Made by a program: the position numbers and the translations under genes. A DNA stretch of 64,000 nt, from assembly GCA_012798135.1 (NCBI GenBank), contig JAAZNU010000005.1:16752-80751 (forward strand), read 5' to 3'. Positions 5,820 to 55,578 of this stretch are shown piece after piece (positions within the stretch are counted from its first letter, which is position 1; the number at the start of each line of letters is the position of its first letter). This DNA comes from Veillonellaceae bacterium (lineage in GTDB: Bacteria; Bacillota_C; Negativicutes; UBA1444). Under the pieces are notes generated by a model. It ran no database searches. It saw only the letters and a list, made by a program, of their open reading frames with translations, and was not told the DNA's origin.

Positions 5820-5902
5820 TAATTCCACTCTCCCGCGCAGCAACTGCCCGTAACGCAGCAAGGCAGCCATCACAAAATTTCAGGCAATTCGCGGGACGGC
5901 AA

Positions 5903-5931
5903 GAGGCTCCTCGGGAAAACCGAAGAGCCCC
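5903..5931 (-). terminator. GGCTCTTCGG-type hairpin downstream of phzF
   Basis: A 12-bp stem, GGGGCTCTTCGG with CCGAGGAGCCTC on the minus strand, and a short TTTTC loop. The T tract is weak, so termination is likely but not certain. It is one of three related hairpins in the window; see 12527-12554 and 13750-13777. Confidence 0.55.
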
Positions 5932-6095
5932 TATATCCATCCCTTATCTAAATTTTATCCCATATTGCCATTCATCGAATCCGCCATTCGTCCCAAGCCA
6001 CCAGGACAAAAGTCCCATCTCCACCTGTAAACCCAAGAGCATCCTGGCCGATTGGGTTCGCAGATTTGGGCCAGACGAATGAAATCCTTCCATAT

Positions 6096-6986
6096 TCAGC
6101 CGTGCAGGCAGTAATCGCCGCAAATCCGGGTCAGTGCCGACCCGCCGAACAAGATCCGGTCCGCCGTTGCCGTGTGGATTTTGCGCAGCTTCACGATGTT
6201 GGGCACCATTTTTGACGGTCCCTGCTCGATGGTAACATTCGAAGTCCATCGTCCGTTTTGAATCAAATAGTAGCCAAATGCCGAATTGCCCGACCCTGTC
6301 GCCGGGTCCTCGAGATAGCCGAACTTCGGCGCGAACACCCGGGTCCGGTACTGACTGGACTGCAGATAGGTTTCTGGCGAGTAAACCAGGACAATGTCAA
6401 CATCCCCACTCAGACAAAACTGCCGCAACGCTTCCTGCGGCGGCTTCAGGCCGAGGCAGGCGTCCAGGGAGGCCAACGGCACAATCAAGGTCCGCAGGCC
6501 GGCATTGACGATTTGCACCGGCGCAGCGACAGCCAGCGCTGACGGATCGATTGCCAGCGCGCCGGCAATCTCGTCGGCAGACCAGCCGCACGGCAGGAAT
6601 TGCGGTTCCGGCGCCATCACATACACCGCGTCTTCATCGTCAATATGGTTGAACACCGTCAGCTTTCCCGCATTGACATACAGGGAAAGCTCTTTTTGTC
6701 GCCGCAAGGTCTCATTCGAACGGATCCAGTCATACAGGGCGGCAATCGACGCGTGCCCGCAAAATTCGACTTCGCACTCCGACGAATAGTATTTCAGCCG
6801 GACGCCGTCAGCGACCGGGAACAGGAATGCGACTTCGCTGACGAACCCTTTCAGTTCCCAGGCGATCCGCTGCATCGCCGCGACGGTGATGTCCTGTTCG
6901 TGTTGCAGGCAGACGCATCCCGCCGGATTGCCGGTTGCTTGCCCGCCGGTAAAGGCGTCGATCTTCTTGAACGAGAACTTCTGCAT
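6096..6986 (-). CDS. PhzF family isomerase/epimerase
   Basis: A 296-residue PhzF-fold protein (diaminopimelate-epimerase-like two-domain fold). Diagnostic segments are IDAFTGGQATGNPAGCVCL, the catalytic glutamate in FVSEVAFL (Glu51), ECEVEFCGHAS and YLEDPATGSGN. True PhzF isomerises trans-2,3-dihydro-3-hydroxyanthranilate, but most homologues outside phenazine clusters have unknown substrates, and no phenazine gene is present here. It is a monocistronic-looking cytoplasmic enzyme; the family is sure and the substrate is not. Confidence 0.88.
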   Translation of the reverse strand: MQKFSFKKIDAFTGGQATGNPAGCVCLQHEQDITVAAMQRIAWELKGFVSEVAFLFPVADGVRLKYYSSECEVEFCGHASIAALYDWIRSNETLRRQKELSLYVNAGKLTVFNHIDDEDAVYVMAPEPQFLPCGWSADEIAGALAIDPSALAVAAPVQIVNAGLRTLIVPLASLDACLGLKPPQEALRQFCLSGDVDIVLVYSPETYLQSSQYRTRVFAPKFGYLEDPATGSGNSAFGYYLIQNGRWTSNVTIEQGPSKMVPNIVKLRKIHTATADRILFGGSALTRICGDYCLHG

Positions 6987-13790: not shown

Positions 13791-13888
13791 TGGCGGGAGC
13801 GTGTAGGAATCGAACCCACCCAGGACGGGGTCACCGCCCCACACGCGGTTTTGAAGACCGGGGAGACCACCAGGCCCCATTCGCTCCC
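13791..13888 (-). tRNA. selC: tRNA-Sec (anticodon TCA)
   Basis: Selenocysteine tRNA that reads UGA with SelB. On the minus strand it runs from GGGAGCG to CGCTCCC-G-CCA, 98 bases with an encoded CCA. The acceptor stem, a long extra arm (GTGTGGGGCGGTGACCCCG region), the T loop GGTTCGATTCC and the anticodon TCA in GTCTTCAAAAC are all visible. SerRS, encoded at 36672-37940, is the enzyme that would charge it with serine. No selA, selB or selD and no recognisable selenoprotein gene is in the window. Confidence 0.97.
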
Positions 13889-40090: not shown

Positions 40091-41029
40091 TTAGAATTGC
40101 TCTTCGTAATGATCTTCGATGATTTTCACGAACCGGGCGATATAGTCATTAGCCGGCGTGGGAATTCCCAACTCCCGGCCGTAGCGGGCAATCGCGCCGT
40201 TGAGCGAATCGATCTCCGTTTGCCGATGGGCCCGCATGTCCTGGGCCATGGACGGATAATGCCCGCCCCCCCGCTGCACGGACGCGATCATGTCGGCGAT
40301 CAGGGCCTCATAATCGAGCTTCACGCCCTTCGCCGCCGCCACCGTCACCACTTCCCGCGTGATGTCCTGAACCGTCTGGAAGCCGGTCGGATGGTTGAAA
40401 AATTCGCCGACCCGCAGCCGCACGATCCCGCAGGTACCGTTCACGCAGGCGTTCGACACCGCCTTGGCCCAGATATGTTCCGCGACATGCGCGGAAAACT
40501 CGGCCGGTACGCCGCCGGCGTTCAAATGAGCCACGATCGTCCTCGCCGCTTCGTCAGCGGCTCCCTGCCGCGCCAAACTGCCGATGTAGATCGCAATGCC
40601 GCCCAGCGTGTTCGCCAATACCTGCCCCGGTCCCGTCAAGCTGCCGGTCATCCGCAACACTCCCTGCAGAATGCGGTCGGGCGGAAACAGACCGGCGAGA
40701 ATTTCATCGTTGCCCAGACCGTTCTGCAGCGAGCAGATATAGGTATGTTCGCTGAACAGACCCGGCGCCCCCTGCACCGCCGCTGCCGAATGAAAACCTT
40801 TCACCAGCAGGACGACGACATCCACCGGCCCGGCCTCGGCCGGATTGACGCAGGTTGCCGGGTAAACCACCTCCGTCCGGTCGGACCATTTTACCTGCAA
40901 GCCGTCCCGGGCCACTTTTTCCAGGTGTTCTTTATACGGATCGACTAAAACGACTTCCTGGCCGCCCTTGGCCAGAACCGCGCCGATGATGCTGCCCATC
41001 GCGCCGGCTCCCAAAATGGCGTATTTCAT
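40091..41029 (-). CDS. Ketopantoate reductase-like (ApbA/PanE family) dehydrogenase
   Basis: A 312-residue NADPH-dependent reductase of the ApbA/PanE family, whose model enzyme makes pantoate for coenzyme A. N-terminal MKYAILGAGAMGSIIGAVLAKGGQEVVLVD is the nucleotide fold. KAVSNACVNGTCGIVRLRVGE holds the catalytic Lys and Asn, and HYPSMAQDMRAHRQTEIDSLNG the C-terminal Ser-Met-x-Asp and Glu-Ile-Asp substrate motifs. I start at 41029 behind GGAGAAGG. Many paralogues act on other 2-ketoacids, so panE is not assigned. Confidence 0.88.
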   Translation of the reverse strand: MKYAILGAGAMGSIIGAVLAKGGQEVVLVDPYKEHLEKVARDGLQVKWSDRTEVVYPATCVNPAEAGPVDVVVLLVKGFHSAAAVQGAPGLFSEHTYICSLQNGLGNDEILAGLFPPDRILQGVLRMTGSLTGPGQVLANTLGGIAIYIGSLARQGAADEAARTIVAHLNAGGVPAEFSAHVAEHIWAKAVSNACVNGTCGIVRLRVGEFFNHPTGFQTVQDITREVVTVAAAKGVKLDYEALIADMIASVQRGGGHYPSMAQDMRAHRQTEIDSLNGAIARYGRELGIPTPANDYIARFVKIIEDHYEEQF

Positions 41030-41169
41030 ATCCGGTTTCACCTTCTCCGCGCCCCGCAACAGGGGCATTTTATATTATCTTTTTCACCATATCACTCATT
41101 GCCAACAGATGCAACTAAAAATGCAATCTCAACAACCGCCGCCGGCATCCCAAAACAAGAAACGAATTG

Positions 41170-41283
41170 TGTTACCGGGGTTATCCAGGTTACCCGCTTT
41201 TCGGCATAATGCGTAAAGCGTCCGGGAGTGAATTTTTCACAGCATCCAGGCTTTTTTCGGTCACCTGGGTAACATCAGTAACA
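41170..41283. repeat. Two inverted clusters of three 9-bp iterons: candidate replication origin
   Basis: Plus-strand 9-mers at 41170 (TGTTACCGG), 41179 (GGTTATCCA) and 41188 (GGTTACCCG) abut without gaps. Three more, inverted, lie at 41257-41265, 41266-41274 and 41275-41283 (minus strand: GGTGACCGA, TGTTACCCA, TGTTACTGA). The clusters are 60 bases apart, and the spacer holds a small GTGAA/TTCAC hairpin. The block lies between the primase-helicase stop and the PanE-like start. Such paired iteron sets flank the origins of primase-carrying phage satellites, for example SaPIs. No gene is visible in the 323 bases between the neighbours. Confidence 0.6.
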
Positions 41284-41286
41284 CAA

Positions 41287-41320
41287 AAAGGACCGTCGCC
41301 CAATACAGTCCTTTTGTTTT
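41287..41320 (-). terminator. Terminator of the primase-helicase gene
   Basis: Minus-strand stem CAAAAGGAC / GTCCTTTTTG after the primase-helicase stop. Confidence 0.65.
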
Positions 41321-41352
41321 GCCCATTCAGCATTACATTTTGCTTTGATTTC

Positions 41353-43473
41353 TTACTGATTCGCCGCCGATTCGTCGAGGCCGATTCCGTCCCAGCAGAG
41401 CACGTTGTGGCTGCCCCGCCGCGTCTGCAGGCCATGCTCCCGCATCAGCGCCGTGAAGGTCCGTTTGGCAACAGGCTTGTCCGCATTCTGTGCGCACCAG
41501 GCTTCGTACTCCCGGTAAGAATCGGCTACCGTTGCCGCCGCCAGCGGATTGGCCACGCAGCGGGCCCGGATGTATTCGCCGATAAGGTCCATTTCATCGC
41601 GGTATTCGTCGGTCGCCGCCGTTACCTCCGCCGGCGGGACCAGTTTTTCCGCCTGCCAGAGCCGGCACCCTGCGACGGCCCAGCGCAAAATTCCGGGCAG
41701 CTCCAGTTTCAACTTCTCCGGCAGGGCCGCGTCGCGTTCCGCCGGCGGAATCGTCACGGTGAACGGGATCAGGCGCAACCGCCGCCAGATGGCTTCATCG
41801 CAGCCCCGGACCGAGGGCTTGTGATTGGTCGCCAGCCACAGCTTGAACTGCGGCAGGAATTCGAACCATTCGCCGCGCATGAACCGCGCCGCCAGCTTGT
41901 CCTGCCCCGTCATCTGCTTGATTTTGCTTTCGTTCAGACGCCGTCCCTGATCCGCTTCCACGGCGGAAACAAACCGGGCGCCGCGCAAGGCGGCGATATC
42001 GTTGGGAATCGCATTGTCCTGCCGCGCCAGCAGCGCTTCCATCGACAACTGCCGCGCATAATCGTTCAGCAGCGTCATCAGGGTCGTCAAGAAAGTGCTT
42101 TTGCCGTTTGCGCCATGGCCGTACAGCAAAAACAGGCATTGCTCGCCGCATTCGCCGGTCAGGGAATAGCCGACCGCTTTCTGCACATAACGGATCAGTT
42201 CCCGACGCCCGGCAAAAATGCGTTCGAGGAAGGCCTCCCAGGTCGGACAGGCTGCCGCCGGATCATAGGCGGCCACCGCCAGTTTGGTGATCAGGCGCGC
42301 GGGAGCATGCGGCAGCAGTTCGCCGCTGCGCAGATCCACCGTGCCGTTTTCCACATTCAGCAGCCAGCCGTCCCGGTCGAAATCGTCCGGGGAAGCTATA
42401 AACGCGCTCTGACTCTGCGCGAGTTTGAGCATGGCCCGCAGACGCAGCTCCGACTCGCTCTGGGCGGCAAATTTCTGCAACAATTTGCGTCGTTTGGGAT
42501 TGGAGCAATGAGCGGCCTGCGCCCGGATGTTTCGAACCGTCTCCGCCGCCCGCCGACAAGCTTCGCCGGTGGTATCGCGCCGCCAGCGGCGGCCGTCCCA
42601 GTCGAGCCATTTGCCAAAAGCGCCGCAATAACGCAGACTTTGTCCATGCCGCTCCGCCAGCCGTTCGGCGTTGCCCAGATCAGTCAGGTAATGTTCGTCG
42701 GGAACGGGCGGTTCCACCAGTTGCAGCAAATCCGCCACGGTATGCCCGGCATCGATCCAATCCGAAACATCGCCCTTGTCCGGCAACCCGTCCAGCTGAA
42801 GCAGCGTTGCTTTGCAGTTTCGCTGTTGCAACGAGTTTCGCACCAATTGCATGTGGGCCCGCCCGACCCCATCATTGTCCGGCAGCAACGCCACTTTGGC
42901 GCCGGCCGGAAAGCAGGCGGCATGTTCCGCCTTCCACTTTTTGGCCCCGCCATGATTCGTTGTCGCGCAGAGCCCCCAGGCCGCGAGGCGGTCCGCATCT
43001 TTTTCGCCTTCGACGACATACACCTGCGTAGAGGCTGCCAACGCCTCCAACAGGGCAGGAAGACGATAAGGGACCGGCGTCACGCCGTCCAGGTTCCATA
43101 GCCAGCCGCCGGGCCGGTCGGGGTCCGGTCGCCGCTGCGCAAATCCTTTGGGGGAAAATCGCACCGTTTGATAAAGCAGCCGGCCATCGGCGTCCGTATA
43201 ATCGTATGTGGCGACAATCCGGCGCTGCGGGTTGTCAGCGGCGTAGACCGGCCTTTCTTCCGGCAGAGTCCGTCCGGTCATCTCGGCGAGCTGTTTCAGC
43301 CCGCCGCCGATTTTTTCTTTGTGGCAATAAAAAGTCCCCTGCGCCGAATTCACCGAAAAGGAAGGATGTTTGTCCCGCCCGCCGTGGCTTGGCAGCGGAC
43401 AGTGCGCGCTGCCTTCATCGCCCCGCCAGCGAACCGGGCCGCAAACCGACTCCAAAAAATCGCGGGCAATCAC
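41353..43473 (-). CDS. Phage/plasmid primase-helicase (P4 alpha / D5 type)
   Basis: A 706-residue replication protein. The N-terminal zinc-binding primase part is SAHCPLPSHGGRDKHPSFSV...FYCHKEK. A TOPRIM domain follows (YVVEGEKDADRLAAWG, then ALLPDNDGVGRAH). The middle is a D5-N-like region. The C-terminal SF3 helicase (about 440-600) has Walker A LLYGHGANGKSTFLTTL and the sensor region FKLWLATNHKPSVRGCDEAIWRRLRLIPF, then a winged-helix end. Such proteins start and unwind their own replicon. Its ATG overlaps the stop of the HTH gene by 4 bases, and candidate iterons lie 70-185 bases past its end. Confidence 0.92.
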   Translation of the reverse strand: MIARDFLESVCGPVRWRGDEGSAHCPLPSHGGRDKHPSFSVNSAQGTFYCHKEKIGGGLKQLAEMTGRTLPEERPVYAADNPQRRIVATYDYTDADGRLLYQTVRFSPKGFAQRRPDPDRPGGWLWNLDGVTPVPYRLPALLEALAASTQVYVVEGEKDADRLAAWGLCATTNHGGAKKWKAEHAACFPAGAKVALLPDNDGVGRAHMQLVRNSLQQRNCKATLLQLDGLPDKGDVSDWIDAGHTVADLLQLVEPPVPDEHYLTDLGNAERLAERHGQSLRYCGAFGKWLDWDGRRWRRDTTGEACRRAAETVRNIRAQAAHCSNPKRRKLLQKFAAQSESELRLRAMLKLAQSQSAFIASPDDFDRDGWLLNVENGTVDLRSGELLPHAPARLITKLAVAAYDPAAACPTWEAFLERIFAGRRELIRYVQKAVGYSLTGECGEQCLFLLYGHGANGKSTFLTTLMTLLNDYARQLSMEALLARQDNAIPNDIAALRGARFVSAVEADQGRRLNESKIKQMTGQDKLAARFMRGEWFEFLPQFKLWLATNHKPSVRGCDEAIWRRLRLIPFTVTIPPAERDAALPEKLKLELPGILRWAVAGCRLWQAEKLVPPAEVTAATDEYRDEMDLIGEYIRARCVANPLAAATVADSYREYEAWCAQNADKPVAKRTFTALMREHGLQTRRGSHNVLCWDGIGLDESAANQ

Positions 43474-44063
43474 GGGGCCATCGCCTCCGTTTGCCTGGGC
43501 ACGGTCAGAACTTCATATTTCTCCGGATACATGGCCGCCATCAGGCCGGGAGCCCCGTCGCGGCAGCGAATGACAATCAGTCCCTGCAGCTTCTCCCGGG
43601 GGATGTCCGGGGTTTCCGCCAGCGCCAGCCGGGGTTCTTCGCGGCGCAACACCTGCCATACTTCCGGCAACGCTTCCGCGGGATAAATATGAAAATCCAG
43701 TTCGTCCGCCGCGGTCACCCCATGATTGGCCAGGCTTCGCAACAACCCCCACAGCAGCGCGCCCGCCTGCGTGATCAAATCCGGCGGCCAGGGGGCATCC
43801 GGGTTCGGCAAGGCGCAGAACCGCGCCCGGAACTTAGCGATCTGCACGGTGGAAAAGCCGAGATCGCTTTTCATCATCCGCTGCGCGGCATAAATCTCAG
43901 CAGGAACGATCGGGTCATATTCCGTCAGCCGCCCCTTGCCCCGCCCCAGCGTTTTTGTCACCGGCGGCGTCATCAGCCCCCAACGCCGGTAATTCTGCAG
44001 CGTCGTCTGCTTGATTGGAAATCCCATCGCAGCGACTGTTTCTTTTACTTCTGTCGGCGTCAT
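43470..44063 (-). CDS. Helix-turn-helix protein coupled to the primase-helicase
   Basis: A 197-residue protein of no known family. The first 60 residues form a MerR-like winged helix (KQTTLQNYRRWGLMTPPVTK, then GRLTEYDPIVPAEIYAAQRM). The remaining part (about 70-197) is unfamiliar and acidic, ending YEVLTVPRQTEAM. A strong AAGGAG site and a consensus promoter precede it. Coupling to the replication gene suggests a regulator of the element or an origin-binding partner; that is inference. Confidence 0.75.
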   Translation of the reverse strand: MTPTEVKETVAAMGFPIKQTTLQNYRRWGLMTPPVTKTLGRGKGRLTEYDPIVPAEIYAAQRMMKSDLGFSTVQIAKFRARFCALPNPDAPWPPDLITQAGALLWGLLRSLANHGVTAADELDFHIYPAEALPEVWQVLRREEPRLALAETPDIPREKLQGLIVIRCRDGAPGLMAAMYPEKYEVLTVPRQTEAMAP

Positions 44064-44085
44064 CGTAATCTCCTTAACGATCTTG

Positions 44086-44148
44086 TTTTTATTTTTAATA
44101 ACATTTATATTTGTTTTTAATATTATAACTAAATGATGGATCTGTCAA
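44086..44148 (-). promoter_or_regulatory. Promoter with direct repeats upstream of the HTH gene
   Basis: TTGACA (minus strand, 44143-44148) with TAATAT at 17 bases (44120-44125); an overlapping TATAAT (44122-44127) lies at 15 bases. Two 15-bp AT-rich direct repeats (44086-44100 and 44108-44122; 13 of 15 identical) are spaced exactly 22 bases, two helical turns, apart. This is a likely binding site for the HTH protein. The region is far richer in A+T than its surroundings. Confidence 0.6.
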
Positions 44149-44171
44149 CAAAAACAACTTTCGCAGGACGC

Positions 44172-44200
44172 AACAAAAAAACGCGCTGTTGCAAGCGCGC
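44172..44200 (-). terminator. Terminator of the pyruvate-kinase-like gene
   Basis: Perfect minus-strand stem CGCGCT / AGCGCG with TGCAAC loop, then seven T residues. Confidence 0.9.
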
Positions 44201-44236
44201 CAATAAGAACCTTTGCCAGCAGTCTGAATTGTTTTA

Positions 44237-45751
44237 TCAAGACGTGGGTTCATCGCCCGTCATATTCATGATTCCCAGCCGCGCCGCTTTCTTGCGCTGG
44301 TGCTCGTCCATGCGGGCCAGTACTTTATCCAGCAGGCTGACTCCCTCGACAATATACGGTCCCTTGTTCAGCATCACGCATTCCGCGCGTTCCGACATGG
44401 CCGCGTCGGTGATTTCCGCCCGGGACGGCGCACCGTATTTCACCAGATTCTCGAGTACCTGCGTCGCCCAGATCACCGGCACATGGGCGGCCTCACTGAT
44501 CCACAGCACTTCCTCCTGCAACTCTGCCAGACGTTCATAGCCGACTTCCAGCGCCAAATCCCCCCGGGCGATCATCAGGGCGAGCGGTTGACGGGAAGCG
44601 GCGCGGACGATGATTTCCGGCAGCCGCGACACCGCTTCGGCGGTTTCGATTTTGGCCACCAGGGGCAGCCGCCGCGCCCGCTCGCCAAGTCTGTCCGCCA
44701 GTTCCGCCTGCAGCGCCGAAATATCGTCGGCCGTCTTGACCCAAGACAACCCCAGCAAGTCCGTCAGCGGCAAAATGATGTTCAGGTCCTGCCGATCCTT
44801 CGCCGTGACCGCCGGCCCCAGCGGGGCCCGCAGCGGAAAGTTGAGTCCCTTGCCGGTTTTGAGTCGGACCGGCTTCTGCTTGACCGTGTTCTCGACCTTT
44901 ACCAGCGCTTGACCGGCATAGGCCGCTTCCACTTCGCCGTTGATTTTGCCGTCATCGATGTGAACCGGGTCGCCCGGTCGCAATAAGTCCAATTCCTGTG
45001 GGCAAGTGCATTCCAACAAGGCCGTGATCGGTTGACGCGGCCGGAACTGCGGCGGATGCGACACATCCTTGGTCAGCAGCAGCCGGTCCCCCGCTTCGAC
45101 CCGGGCCGGGAATCCCATCAGCATCACCCGGCTGATCCGGATCTTGGCGCCGGCCAGTTCCATCAGCACCCGACAGGAACGGCCGGTTTCGCGTTCCGCC
45201 CGGCGGACGTTGCGGACCATCGCCGTCCAGATTTCCGGACCGCCATGGGCGCAGTTGATCCGGGCCACATTCATCCCCGCCGCCAGCAGCGATTTCACCG
45301 TCCCATACTCTTCGACGCAGGTTTCGTCCAGCGTCACCATGATCCGGCTTTGCCGCGTCGCCGGCCGGGACCCGAACAACAGCCGGGCCTGGCGCTCCAG
45401 ATTTCTCTCGCCGGCGTAAAATCGTTCCGGTCGCGGATGCCGAACCGCAATCCGATCCTGCCGGCCGGCCAGACAGGCCAGCGAGGCGATCACCGCATCC
45501 AGTCCGGCGATGGCTCCCGCTTCGCTGCGTCCCAGCGTCGACAGGCCCAGCGGCTTCAGGGCATGCTGCAGCGGCCGCAAATCATGCCGGCGCAGCGCCA
45601 GATAAAAAGCCAGATTCAGCGCACCTGGCAGAAAAGACGGGCGCCCGACCGAACTCCGCCAGGCGTGGAATTGCTCCAGTCCTTCCCGATATACGGACTC
45701 CCGCAGCCGGAGCATGGTTTCCAACAATAACTCTTGGCTGTCTGACGGCAT
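44237..45751 (-). CDS. Pyruvate-kinase-domain protein with N-terminal extension and no C-terminal domain
   Basis: A 504-residue protein. Residues about 140-490 form the pyruvate kinase barrel: MNVARINCAHGGPEIW, LMELAGAKIRI (in place of LDTKGPEIR), a B domain with PGDPVHIDDGKINGEV, LVAKIETAEAVSRLPEII with the catalytic Lys, MIARGDLALEVGYERL and WATQVLENLVKYGAPSRAEITDAA. A 135-residue N-terminal domain (GLEQFHAWRSSVGRPSF, LGLSTLGRSEAGAIAGLDAV) precedes it, and the usual allosteric C-terminal domain is absent. I start at 45751 behind AAGGGAGG. Activity as a true pyruvate kinase is uncertain. Confidence 0.85.
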   Translation of the reverse strand: MPSDSQELLLETMLRLRESVYREGLEQFHAWRSSVGRPSFLPGALNLAFYLALRRHDLRPLQHALKPLGLSTLGRSEAGAIAGLDAVIASLACLAGRQDRIAVRHPRPERFYAGERNLERQARLLFGSRPATRQSRIMVTLDETCVEEYGTVKSLLAAGMNVARINCAHGGPEIWTAMVRNVRRAERETGRSCRVLMELAGAKIRISRVMLMGFPARVEAGDRLLLTKDVSHPPQFRPRQPITALLECTCPQELDLLRPGDPVHIDDGKINGEVEAAYAGQALVKVENTVKQKPVRLKTGKGLNFPLRAPLGPAVTAKDRQDLNIILPLTDLLGLSWVKTADDISALQAELADRLGERARRLPLVAKIETAEAVSRLPEIIVRAASRQPLALMIARGDLALEVGYERLAELQEEVLWISEAAHVPVIWATQVLENLVKYGAPSRAEITDAAMSERAECVMLNKGPYIVEGVSLLDKVLARMDEHQRKKAARLGIMNMTGDEPTS

Positions 45752-45920
45752 GGCGGCCTCCCTTGGCTTTGAAAAATCCCTTTCTACAAACATTCGTGAT
45801 TTTAAAGCCGGTTCCTGCAACGTTGCCGTCATGACCTCGCGGTTCTTGTCCCGGAGTTGTCAAAGTGTAGTATAATAAAACGGTTAAAAAAACACCCCGT
45901 ATTGGAGATTCACGCAGCAC

Positions 45921-52383: not shown

Positions 52384-55300
52384 TTATCCCACCACCAGTT
52401 TGTTGGTCTTTTTCAGGAATTTTGCCGGGATCGGCGTCCGCAGCTTCCATGTGATGTTCATGGGACAACTGCCTTCATGGCGAATGTAATCGGCAAGTCC
52501 CAAAAAAGTATAAGGTTCGGTGTTGCCAAACGTATCCTGTTTCGCTTCCCGCACGAACAACAGAATCCGACTTCCCTCCTGCCGATGATGGATGTAGCGC
52601 TGCCCGGTCGACGATTCGGCCGACGTGGTGCTCTGACTCTGCCAGTGAAACAGCCACTCGTTGATGGAATAATCATTGTACATCGTCGTCGGCGAGTAGT
52701 CTTTATCGGATTTATTCAACGTCACAAAAAACACGTCGGTTTTCTTTTTTGAGTAATGTTTCACGCCCAGACCCTGCAACGCGTCATAGTTAAAATCCTC
52801 CATCGCCGTGGCAATCTGGCGCAGCGAATAGTCGCCATGCAGTTCCAGCGGACACTCGAATCCCAAATCCACCGATTCTCCGGTCAGCTCGATCTTGTCG
52901 AAGTTAACCCGCAGCAACTCCAGCACCTCCGACAGCAGCACGGGGGACTCCGCCAAGTCCGCCAGGTTTCTCCGCACCGCATCACCGTCCAAGTGTTCGG
53001 CCGACTCGTTCCAGACCGTCACGTAGAACATTTGCAACAACAACCGTTGCGATGCGTTCAGTCGCATCAAATCCAAACCGCCGATACGAGGCAGCACTTC
53101 CAGGAGAAACTTAATCCAGTGCGGTGAACGAATGGCGCAGAGACGGGAAAAAGCCCGCGTCAAAACCGCTTCGGCCGGCTCCGTGAAGAAGCCGCGGACT
53201 TCGGCCTGCACGCACAGGCGTGAAAAAGTGCCGCGCTTGTATAGCGCCCTAGGATCCAGATGGTAATGATCCAAAAAACGGGCCAAGGTCAGCGGCTGCC
53301 CGCTGTCCTCCTCGAAGCTCTTCAAGCGGGATATGAGTCCGGACTGCGTCCCAAACCCGCTCCGAATGTTGTTTAGCACATACTCGCGGGCCTGACGCTC
53401 CAACTGGATGAAGCACCCCTTGGGCACGGACATGAAGCCGTCCCGAAGCTCCCGCGGCACGCCACGGTTCGTGTTGCTGAGCAGGGCAGCGAACTTCTCT
53501 TCGAAGTTATATTTTTTGTGAGCCTGGCCAATAAAGTCCAAAACGGTCAGGCAATCTTTGTTTTCCACCAACCGCAGCCCCCGGCCCAGTTGCTGCAAGA
53601 ATACGGTCAGACTCTCGGTGGGCCGCAGAAACAACACCGTGTTGATTTCTGGAATGTCTATTCCTTCGTTGTAGAGGTCGACCACAAAAATAAACCGGAC
53701 ATCGCCCCGCACCAGACGGGATTTTGCTGAATTCCGGTCTTCCTCGGGCGACGTTCCCGCAAGGAACAGCGACGGAATGTTATGCGCGTTGAAATACTCC
53801 GCCATAAACCGGGCGTGCTCGACCGAAACGCAAAAACCGAGGCCCTTCACCGTCTCGATGTCTGTGACATATTTCAGGATGGACCGGATAATCAGATCGG
53901 CCCGGCGCTCGGCCGACGCCCGCACGAGAGTATACAGGTTGGAGAGCGCCGTTTTGTCATATCCACCCCGTACCCAGCGCAACTCCCGCAGATCAACAGT
54001 ATCGGTCACCCCAAAATATTGGAACGGCGACAGGAGTTTACGGTCGATCGCCTCCGGAAGGCGGATTTCCGCCGCGATCCTCTGATCAAAATACTCCAGG
54101 ATGCTGCGGCCGTCCATCCGTTCCGGCGTGGCCGTCAGGCCCAACAAAATCTTCGGTCGATAATGAGTCAACAGATTCTGATAGGTCGGCGCTGCGGCAT
54201 GATGGAATTCATCCACGACAATATAATCGTAATATCCCGATGAAGTTTTGGTCTGAAACTCCTGCGAATGAAAAGTCTGCACTGACAGGAACAGATGCGC
54301 GATCTCGTCGGGTCGATAGCCGCCGACAAACAACTGCCCGAAATTCTCGTCCCGGAGCACGCCTCGGAAGCAAGCCAGGCTTTGCTCCAAAATCTCCTGG
54401 CGGTGGGCTACGAACAGCAATCGGTTGGGCTGGCCGGGATGCGCCTTGCAAAACCGTTTGTAGTCAAAAGCCGAAATCACCGTTTTTCCGGTTCCGGTGG
54501 CCGCAACAACCAGGTTTTTGTAATGGCCGCGTACCTGCCGCTCCGCCACCAGTTTGTCGAGAATCTCCTGTTGATAGGGATACGGCTGGACATCAAACAG
54601 ATACGGTCTTGCCTGCATATCACCCGTCTGGCGTTCCGCCCGCAGCGCCCGGGCCAACCGAACCTCCTGCTCGGCGTGATAGGGCTCAAAATCGCCGGAG
54701 TTCCAGTAGACTGCAAAGGTTTTGGCAATCTTGCCGACGGTGTCGGGCAGGTCTTTGGCCGTCACTTTGACATTCCACTCCAGTCCGCTGGAGATGGCGG
54801 CATTGGAAAGGTTGGAGGACCCAACATAGGCTGTCGTAAAACCCGTTTCCCGATAGAAAACATAAGTTTTTGCATGCAAGCGCGTGCGTTTGGTGTCATA
54901 GGAAATCTTGATTTCGGTATTAGGCAACGCTTGCAGCTCGGCAACGGCTTTCACGTCCGTCGCGCCCATATAGGAAGTCGTAATGATTCGCAGCTGGCCG
55001 CCGTGCTGCGTAAACCAGCGCAGCTCCTCCATGATCATCCTTAGTCCGCTCCACTTGATGAACGATACCAACAGATCGATCCGGTCGCAGGATGTGATCT
55101 CCTTCTTCAGTTCTGAAACAAGACTGGGCTCGCGAACCGCACCGGTAAACAGAGAACTGACCGCCAGCGAGGTCTCCGGGCGGACAATGACAGAGGGCCC
55201 GGTCAACGTCTGGGCATTATTCTGCCGGTCCAACAGTGCCAACAGTTGTTCCGCCCGCTGATCGACCAGATACTCGTCGATGTGATCGTCGCGGATTTCT

Positions 55301-55533
55301 TGTCGAATCAGGTCCAGCAGCTTGTTCACCAGCGCCACCTGTCCCTGCACCGACCCGCCCTGATCCTTCACCATTTCCAGGCATGGCTCCACTACTTCCG
55401 CCAAGTATTTGGCCAGCACCTTGGCCGCTTCCTGCGCGTCAATCGCCGCCTTTTGGAACTGGCGGTCCGGATTTTCCAGTTCTGCGGCCACCCCCTGGTT
55501 GACAACCTGCTCGTATAATCCAGATTTCAGCAT
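52384..55533 (-). CDS. PLD-nuclease / DEAD-type helicase / DUF3427 protein
   Basis: A 1049-residue multidomain protein. A phospholipase-D-like nuclease domain at about 125-300 has one HKD-type site (RLHAKTYVFYRETG, then YVGSSNLSNAA). An SF2 helicase at about 315-700 shows Walker A VVAATGTGKTVIS, DEFHH box IVVDEFHHAAAP, motif III LLGLTATPERMDG and motif VI QQLGRGLRLVENK. The C-terminal DUF3427 domain (about 750-1049) ends TFLGLADYIRHEGSCPMNI. This architecture is widespread as a single gene and recurs among phage-defence genes, but its action is not settled. GAGG precedes the ATG. Confidence 0.92.
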   Translation of the reverse strand: MLKSGLYEQVVNQGVAAELENPDRQFQKAAIDAQEAAKVLAKYLAEVVEPCLEMVKDQGGSVQGQVALVNKLLDLIRQEIRDDHIDEYLVDQRAEQLLALLDRQNNAQTLTGPSVIVRPETSLAVSSLFTGAVREPSLVSELKKEITSCDRIDLLVSFIKWSGLRMIMEELRWFTQHGGQLRIITTSYMGATDVKAVAELQALPNTEIKISYDTKRTRLHAKTYVFYRETGFTTAYVGSSNLSNAAISSGLEWNVKVTAKDLPDTVGKIAKTFAVYWNSGDFEPYHAEQEVRLARALRAERQTGDMQARPYLFDVQPYPYQQEILDKLVAERQVRGHYKNLVVAATGTGKTVISAFDYKRFCKAHPGQPNRLLFVAHRQEILEQSLACFRGVLRDENFGQLFVGGYRPDEIAHLFLSVQTFHSQEFQTKTSSGYYDYIVVDEFHHAAAPTYQNLLTHYRPKILLGLTATPERMDGRSILEYFDQRIAAEIRLPEAIDRKLLSPFQYFGVTDTVDLRELRWVRGGYDKTALSNLYTLVRASAERRADLIIRSILKYVTDIETVKGLGFCVSVEHARFMAEYFNAHNIPSLFLAGTSPEEDRNSAKSRLVRGDVRFIFVVDLYNEGIDIPEINTVLFLRPTESLTVFLQQLGRGLRLVENKDCLTVLDFIGQAHKKYNFEEKFAALLSNTNRGVPRELRDGFMSVPKGCFIQLERQAREYVLNNIRSGFGTQSGLISRLKSFEEDSGQPLTLARFLDHYHLDPRALYKRGTFSRLCVQAEVRGFFTEPAEAVLTRAFSRLCAIRSPHWIKFLLEVLPRIGGLDLMRLNASQRLLLQMFYVTVWNESAEHLDGDAVRRNLADLAESPVLLSEVLELLRVNFDKIELTGESVDLGFECPLELHGDYSLRQIATAMEDFNYDALQGLGVKHYSKKKTDVFFVTLNKSDKDYSPTTMYNDYSINEWLFHWQSQSTTSAESSTGQRYIHHRQEGSRILLFVREAKQDTFGNTEPYTFLGLADYIRHEGSCPMNITWKLRTPIPAKFLKKTNKLVVG

Positions 55534-55578
55534 TGCAATCGCCTCAACTCTTTCGTCCTTGCAAAACCTGCGGACAAG

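Follow-up and report, generated by a model that had tools for sequence, protein, structure and literature searches.

Two sets of iterons around an origin are already in print for the phage-inducible chromosomal islands (PICIs): as far as the cited portion of PMC6092414 extends, the Escherichia coli PICI origins compared always display an AT-rich region with an iteron set on either side, and PICI pri-rep-ori segments drive plasmid replication. In the cited portion of PMC7581432, the iterons of Staphylococcus aureus pathogenicity islands (SaPIs) are read by the C-terminal domain of the initiators Rep and Cch2. The stretch analysed here (the window) comprises 64,000 nucleotides of contig JAAZNU010000005.1 from a Veillonellaceae bacterium, and contains a 3.2-kb segment (41077–44236, exact ends undefined) that, like the SaPI/PICI pri-rep-ori block, combines a primase/initiator helicase gene with a candidate origin directly downstream, in which two iteron sets flank a spacer. 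The unit is probably a minimal chromosomal replicon of this satellite type, devoid of integrase and packaging genes, which would replicate from its own origin. In contrast to SaPIs and PICIs, integrase, excision, interference and packaging genes were not found in the window unit, and a MerR-like gene occupies its operon in place of the PICI repressor layout.

Three further systems resemble the unit in part. Plasmid pRN1 of Sulfolobus islandicus presents the same order of parts within approximately 3.1 kb, with a promoter, a small DNA-binding gene, an overlapping primase-helicase and approximately 170 bp downstream with two inverted arms; the cited sections of PMC4234260 give its minimal replicon as 3097 bp, comprising a promoter, the repressor ORF56, the primase-helicase ORF904 and 166 bp downstream. 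In contrast to the window unit, pRN1 is an archaeal, extrachromosomal plasmid; its primase domain is archaeo-eukaryotic, and its authors describe a stem-loop. Satellite phage P4 shares with the unit the primase family (alpha) and repeats in both orientations past the gene (crr) but differs by its integrase and packaging-related genes and by crr being a 120-bp direct repeat. Similarly, the small circular plasmid unnamed2 of Thermaerobacter sp. FW80 (NZ_CP037897) has genes for a MerR-family regulator, a helix-turn-helix (HTH) protein and a P4-family primase that is 51% identical over 61% of the query, whereas it also carries tyrosine recombinase genes and shows no GTTAC-type repeats in positions 5850–6300.

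Of the open reading frames (ORFs) listed for the 3.2-kb segment, only two have the expected size and strand; these two genes are located between a PanE-like gene (40091–41068) and a pyruvate-kinase-like gene (44237–45832). The second gene of the pair (41353–43473, minus strand, GTG start) encodes a 706-residue P4/D5-family primase-helicase and overlaps by 4 bp with the upstream HTH gene. The family assignment is established by TIGR01613 (P4-family phage/plasmid primase; 2e-93, 312.6 bits, above the curated cut-off of 108.7), by the Pfam domains D5_N (3.9e-34) and DUF5906 (1e-07) and by a top PHROG match to DNA primase (1.2e-157). Thus, the primase-helicase, its 4-base coupling to the HTH gene and its two flanking genes, all named in a preliminary description made from the letters of the window, are borne out by the profile matches, the ORF coordinates and the domain and family searches, respectively. 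The Walker A motif of the helicase, GANGKST, lies at residue 454, GANGKSTF is invariant across a 21-row primase alignment, and a profile built on 19 primase relatives matched solved D5-type primase-helicases. There is a weak DnaG-type match at residues 18–57 and no Pfam match to an archaeo-eukaryotic primase domain; together with the Toprim domains precomputed for some relatives, the DnaG-type match tentatively points to a DnaG-type rather than an archaeo-eukaryotic primase. The predicted structure has a mean predicted local distance difference test (pLDDT) value of 69, falling below 50 in the helicase core (442–575).

The first gene of the pair (43470–44063, minus strand) encodes the 197-residue HTH protein, for which searches of Pfam, PHROGs and NCBIfam with a threshold of 1e-3 gave no match. 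At a lax threshold MerR_1 is matched by 14 of 19 family members (best E 0.0018), the window protein itself staying below the cut-off (E 0.056; score 14.0 against 21.6), and the protein is classed here as MerR-like, a putative regulator. Its fold model is of low confidence (pLDDT 60) and the structure search gave no useful match. A consensus scan of 40900–44400 returned four promoter-like sites against 1.3 in shuffles, including a sigma-70-like promoter of the operon at 44119–44148 (minus strand; TTGACA, 17–18 nt, AT-rich -10). Downstream of the primase gene, an inverted repeat at 41286–41315 (minus strand; 11-nt arms, 91% complementary, then T) is a possible operon terminator; the call was made by eye only and the terminator scan did not list the repeat.

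The iteron clusters start approximately 70 bp past the primase stop and consist of two inverted sets of three 9-bp units, 62 bp apart. Cluster 1 (41283–41257, minus strand) displays the cores TGTTACT, TGTTACC and GGTGACC, and cluster 2 (41168–41194, plus strand) the cores TGTTACC, GGTTATC and GGTTACC, with a 9-bp spacing in both. The spacer between them (41195–41256) has a GC content of 45% (measured over 41197–41258) against 63% in the primase gene. The layout of six 9-bp iterons in two inverted clusters, previously given as 60 bases apart, is therefore retained with 62 bp, in contrast to the consensus proposed for it, KGTTACCSR, which is too strict. As an exact signature that consensus was rejected: three of the six sites fit it, and its three exact matches in 64 kb are at chance level (as many in 40 of 100 shuffles). 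A detector of double inverted triplets scored the window site 36 out of 42, against maxima of 35 in 140 other window segments and 34 in 200 shuffles. Given the modest margin of this score, the main weight lies with the comparative evidence.

The origin layout was surveyed beside other P4/D5 primases, the loci being chosen, among the matches listed, by similarity to the window primase or its relatives. Genome contigs, IMG/VR, plasmids, phages and genomes of the class supplied 179 tested loci, 168 with a primase stop and 166 with 150 bp beyond it; removal of proteins more than 70% identical left 121. In 81 of the 166 loci, exact repeats in two inverted clusters occurred within the region from -100 to +350 relative to the stop, compared with 13 of 1660 shuffles, which preserve base composition only, and with 80 of 1426 windows taken from other parts of these loci. 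With a detector of two inverted iteron pairs (28 positions, at most two mismatches, cut-off 26), 66 of the 121 non-redundant primases qualified, whereas only 5 of 2420 shuffles and 31 of 2038 windows from other parts of the loci did so; at a stricter 27 the counts were 51 of 121, 0 of 2420 and 7 of 2038. Thus, the paired-cluster architecture recurs beside homologous primases. Upstream regions of the gene scored in 1 of 36 cases and same-orientation pairs in 16 of 121. By source, the pattern was present in genome contigs (24/55), plasmids and phages (2/4), IMG/VR (34/54) and class genomes (6/8). Among the 66 loci the first-to-first distance between clusters has a median of 83 bp and lies within 70–100 bp in 55, and the spacer is AT-richer than the region in 54. 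In the 51 loci of the stricter set, 66 of the 102 arms have an iteron period of 9 bp, 22 one of 8 bp and 14 one of 10 bp. The iteron letters vary widely among the loci. When the window and 65 survey loci were compared (66 sequences in all), the similarity of the iterons was correlated with the identity of the C-terminal region of approximately 100 residues (r 0.19, permutation p 0.0005); the partial r is 0.10 (p 0.007) once the helicase core is held constant, compared with 0.04 for the core with the C-terminus held constant. This effect is weak, and it is in line with what has been published on the C-terminal domain of SaPI Rep and Cch2.

A related unit, by way of whose locus the genomes used for comparison were reached, was identified in genome G001, Sporomusaceae bacterium SM1-B11.1, at locus L024, between a major facilitator superfamily (MFS) gene and pilin genes. 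Its HTH protein is 40% and its primase 58% identical to those of the window, the genes share the 4-bp overlap, and two inverted triplets of GGTAACG are present, one overlapping the primase stop; its survey score is 28. The orientation order of the iterons is reversed between the two loci, the GTTAC type coming first in the window (41168–41283) and the GTAAC type first in L024 (12115–12237); the core is nearly palindromic. L024 is the one other complete gene pair with readable DNA, so that no complete pair lacking paired iterons was encountered. In the 3.9 Mb of G001 the GTAAC triplet pattern has four matches, all within two copies of the unit (L024 and contig 49) rather than scattered over unrelated intergenic sites. 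The pattern has no match in genome G318 (one for a reversed control pattern), and the window iterons themselves match the strict form as a doublet only. These data bear on a reading in which the repeats have no origin function and stand in front of PanE for its regulation or by chance. Their location upstream of PanE, the absence of enrichment of the exact 9-mer and the small margin over controls in the window alone would agree with it; in L024, though, paired triplets stand beside the primase with pilin genes downstream instead of PanE, many lineages show the layout past their primase stops, and a scan of 40900–44400 against Rfam gave nothing up to E 0.1. Such a reading is very improbable.

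The second copy in G001 (L230, 9577–9982 on contig 49) is decayed, with a promoter-like start and both iteron clusters kept and the primase only in pieces; it is possibly a non-autonomous copy. By eye, TTGACA opens a similar upstream stretch in L024, L109 and this decayed copy. In G318, another HTH-primase start lies behind a T2SSE (PilT-like) gene, its primase cut by the contig end. Within the class, a primase match at 1e-100 was found in 9 of 380 genomes and an HTH match at 1e-10 in 6 of 380. In the protein database 3487 primase relatives were counted among 7997 scored candidates, and HTH relatives numbered 22; no member of the HTH family was confirmed in IMG/VR (17 pattern matches, none a relative), phage records or plasmid records. 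A decayed copy is also what would be expected if the unit were the remnant of a satellite or prophage, stripped of the integrase and further genes and with its replication module decaying. The primase relatives in integrase-bearing elements and prophages (L004, L013, L058) and the degenerate iterons of the window point the same way. Nevertheless, neither gene is broken in the window or in L024, even with 42% of residues differing between the two primases, and change is greater at third codon positions (identity of 44%) than at first (68%) and second ones (73%). In addition, the identical bare content in two genomes and loci would need independent loss twice. A remnant is thus regarded as unlikely.

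Genome G318 aligns on both sides of the window segment at 87.5–93% nucleotide identity. In that genome PanE directly adjoins the pyruvate-kinase gene; approximately 41077–44236 of the window is missing and approximately 42 bases that do not align stand instead, and the final kinase codons differ. The comparison with relatives suggested in the preliminary description thereby yields a genome that lacks the segment. The segment may have been gained in the window or lost in G318; of 20 kinase loci, which have short flanks, only that of G318 has PanE beside the kinase gene, and they favour neither course. For the L024 unit no empty site was found, MFS relatives being present in 43 of 60 genomes and tblastx of nine loci giving no flank in common beyond the MFS gene except weakly in L222 and L225. 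A second segment of approximately 3.2 kb (52409–55577) is also present in the window and absent in G318, and holds a 1049-residue helicase-like gene (52384–55533, minus strand). The distribution of the unit also concerns a third alternative, a domesticated module, inherited vertically, whose primase and origin serve the host in local amplification or some other function of the cell. Intact genes, a host-like GC content and the proximity of the unit in G001 and G318 to genes of type IV pili or type II secretion are compatible with domestication. A vertically kept module would hardly be so patchy, with a close HTH protein in 2 of 380 genomes, absence at the site in G318 and unrelated flanks in the window and G001, and domestication is accordingly considered quite improbable, although less so than a PanE-related feature.

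No integrase gene is listed among the ORFs at the window, L024, L109 or L230, and six integrase queries gave no tblastn match in the window, L024, L109, L230, L107 or L108, a search of limited sensitivity in which five of the six queries found the positive-control locus. PHROG searches on eight neighbouring genes name no packaging function. The lack of an integrase and of visible att repeats noted at the outset is hence upheld. Mobility of the unit is suggested by its unrelated loci and by the decayed copy, with no mechanism visible, so that the route of a two-gene replicon to new loci becomes a question in itself. The initial proposal of a self-contained origin with its initiator is supported in its SaPI-type origin and initiator by the PICI literature and the iteron layout; an integrase may have been lost or never present, and the unit may be domesticated or mobile.

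As a chromosomal replicon of pri-rep-ori type, the unit would operate as follows. The MerR-like protein would control the operon promoter, and the primase-helicase would be made from the overlapping frame. Its C-terminal region would bind the two inverted clusters past its own gene, probably with one hexamer per cluster in head-to-head orientation. The spacer would then be melted and the DNA unwound both ways and primed, for copying by the host polymerase. New loci might conceivably be reached by integration in trans, through a helper element or the host.

The origin of pRN1 can be compared with this arrangement. In the cited sections of PMC4234260 it is described as a 21-nt stem with a 58-nt loop, iterons are denied, and the stem-loop is conserved in structure and not in sequence. 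Inspection of the stem 3' of orf904 (NC_001771, L231) revealed two 9-bp units per arm with the core TGTCCA, at +56 and +65 and inversely at +135 and +144. The arm distance of 79–80 bp fits the survey rule, and the score is 26 (2 of 200 shuffles as high). In the same family pHEN7 fits (27; 0/200) and pRN2 is suggestive (25; 13/200). Two plasmids were rejected as fits, pDL10 (23; 184/200) and pSSVx, which reached 25 (10/200) only on a T-rich stretch away from the real arms. A stem-loop origin has reportedly been proposed for phage BIP-1; its kin BPP-1 was likewise rejected (23, equalled in 150 of 200 shuffles). In P4, crr directly follows the alpha gene and carries annotated type 1 repeats in either orientation; crr scores 24, which is chance level (27/200), because the distances between these repeats are 9 and 18 bp. 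According to the cited part of PMC3869888, eight adjacent 3-bp deletions in the pRN1 loop gave no transformants and substitutions had little effect, as a fixed cluster spacing predicts.

A single origin grammar may tentatively be proposed for the P4/D5 primase-helicases of bacteria, phages and archaeal plasmids, a generalization held with less confidence than the replicon reading of the window and judged somewhat doubtful: two head-to-head pairs or triplets of approximately 9-bp iterons, approximately 83 bp apart near the initiator stop, whose letters drift freely and are recognized by the C-terminal domain of the initiator. This grammar would include the pRN1 stem-loop, and the window unit would be the smallest natural form, a two-gene replicon spreading without an integrase of its own. 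If true, P4/D5-type origins could be found by rule (near the initiator stop, inverted, with a period of approximately 9 bp and a set distance) in the absence of a conserved sequence. The pRN1 origin would also be re-read, since two binding clusters at fixed spacing would explain both its conservation in structure and not in sequence and the results of the loop mutants. Titles and abstract openings of open-licence literature contained no integrase-free two-gene unit of this kind and no general paired-iteron rule for the enzyme family.

Several observations weigh against the replicon reading and its generalization. The triplet score of the window is only one to two points above the controls, and with the two-plus-two survey detector the window, a degenerate case, reaches 25 for a cut-off of 26. 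The pattern is missing in 55 of the 121 surveyed primases, and a close full-length HTH relative exists in only 2 of the 380 genomes. The segment does not look foreign (59% GC compared with 57% in the window) and has no att-like end repeat, the longest exact word common to both ends being 7 bp. Since the second indel is also gene-sized and holds no replicon, absence in G318 is no proof of a mobile unit. Finally, the cited portion of PMC4234260 reports for pRN1 that a stem mutation blocking replication was rescued by a second one restoring symmetry, and that specific binding of the protein was not seen in vitro.

Distant kin of both proteins were also observed in other contexts. At L004 (3659–7734, Planctomycetota) a related primase is followed by a GTTAC-type iteron pair and then by a tyrosine-recombinase-like gene. 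At L215 (7133–9367, G318) the N-terminal part of a protein is 54% identical to residues 30–254 of the window primase and is joined to a different C-terminal region; an integrase-like frame is present on the same stretch. Distant HTH relatives (30–36% identity over part of the protein) precede an integrase gene at L211 (8314–10104) and primase or helicase-like genes at L212 (5228–8716), L213 (8495–11840) and L214 (557–3108). Elsewhere in the window, a selenocysteine tRNA gene at 13791–13888 (minus strand) is the sole tRNA gene found by ARAGORN.

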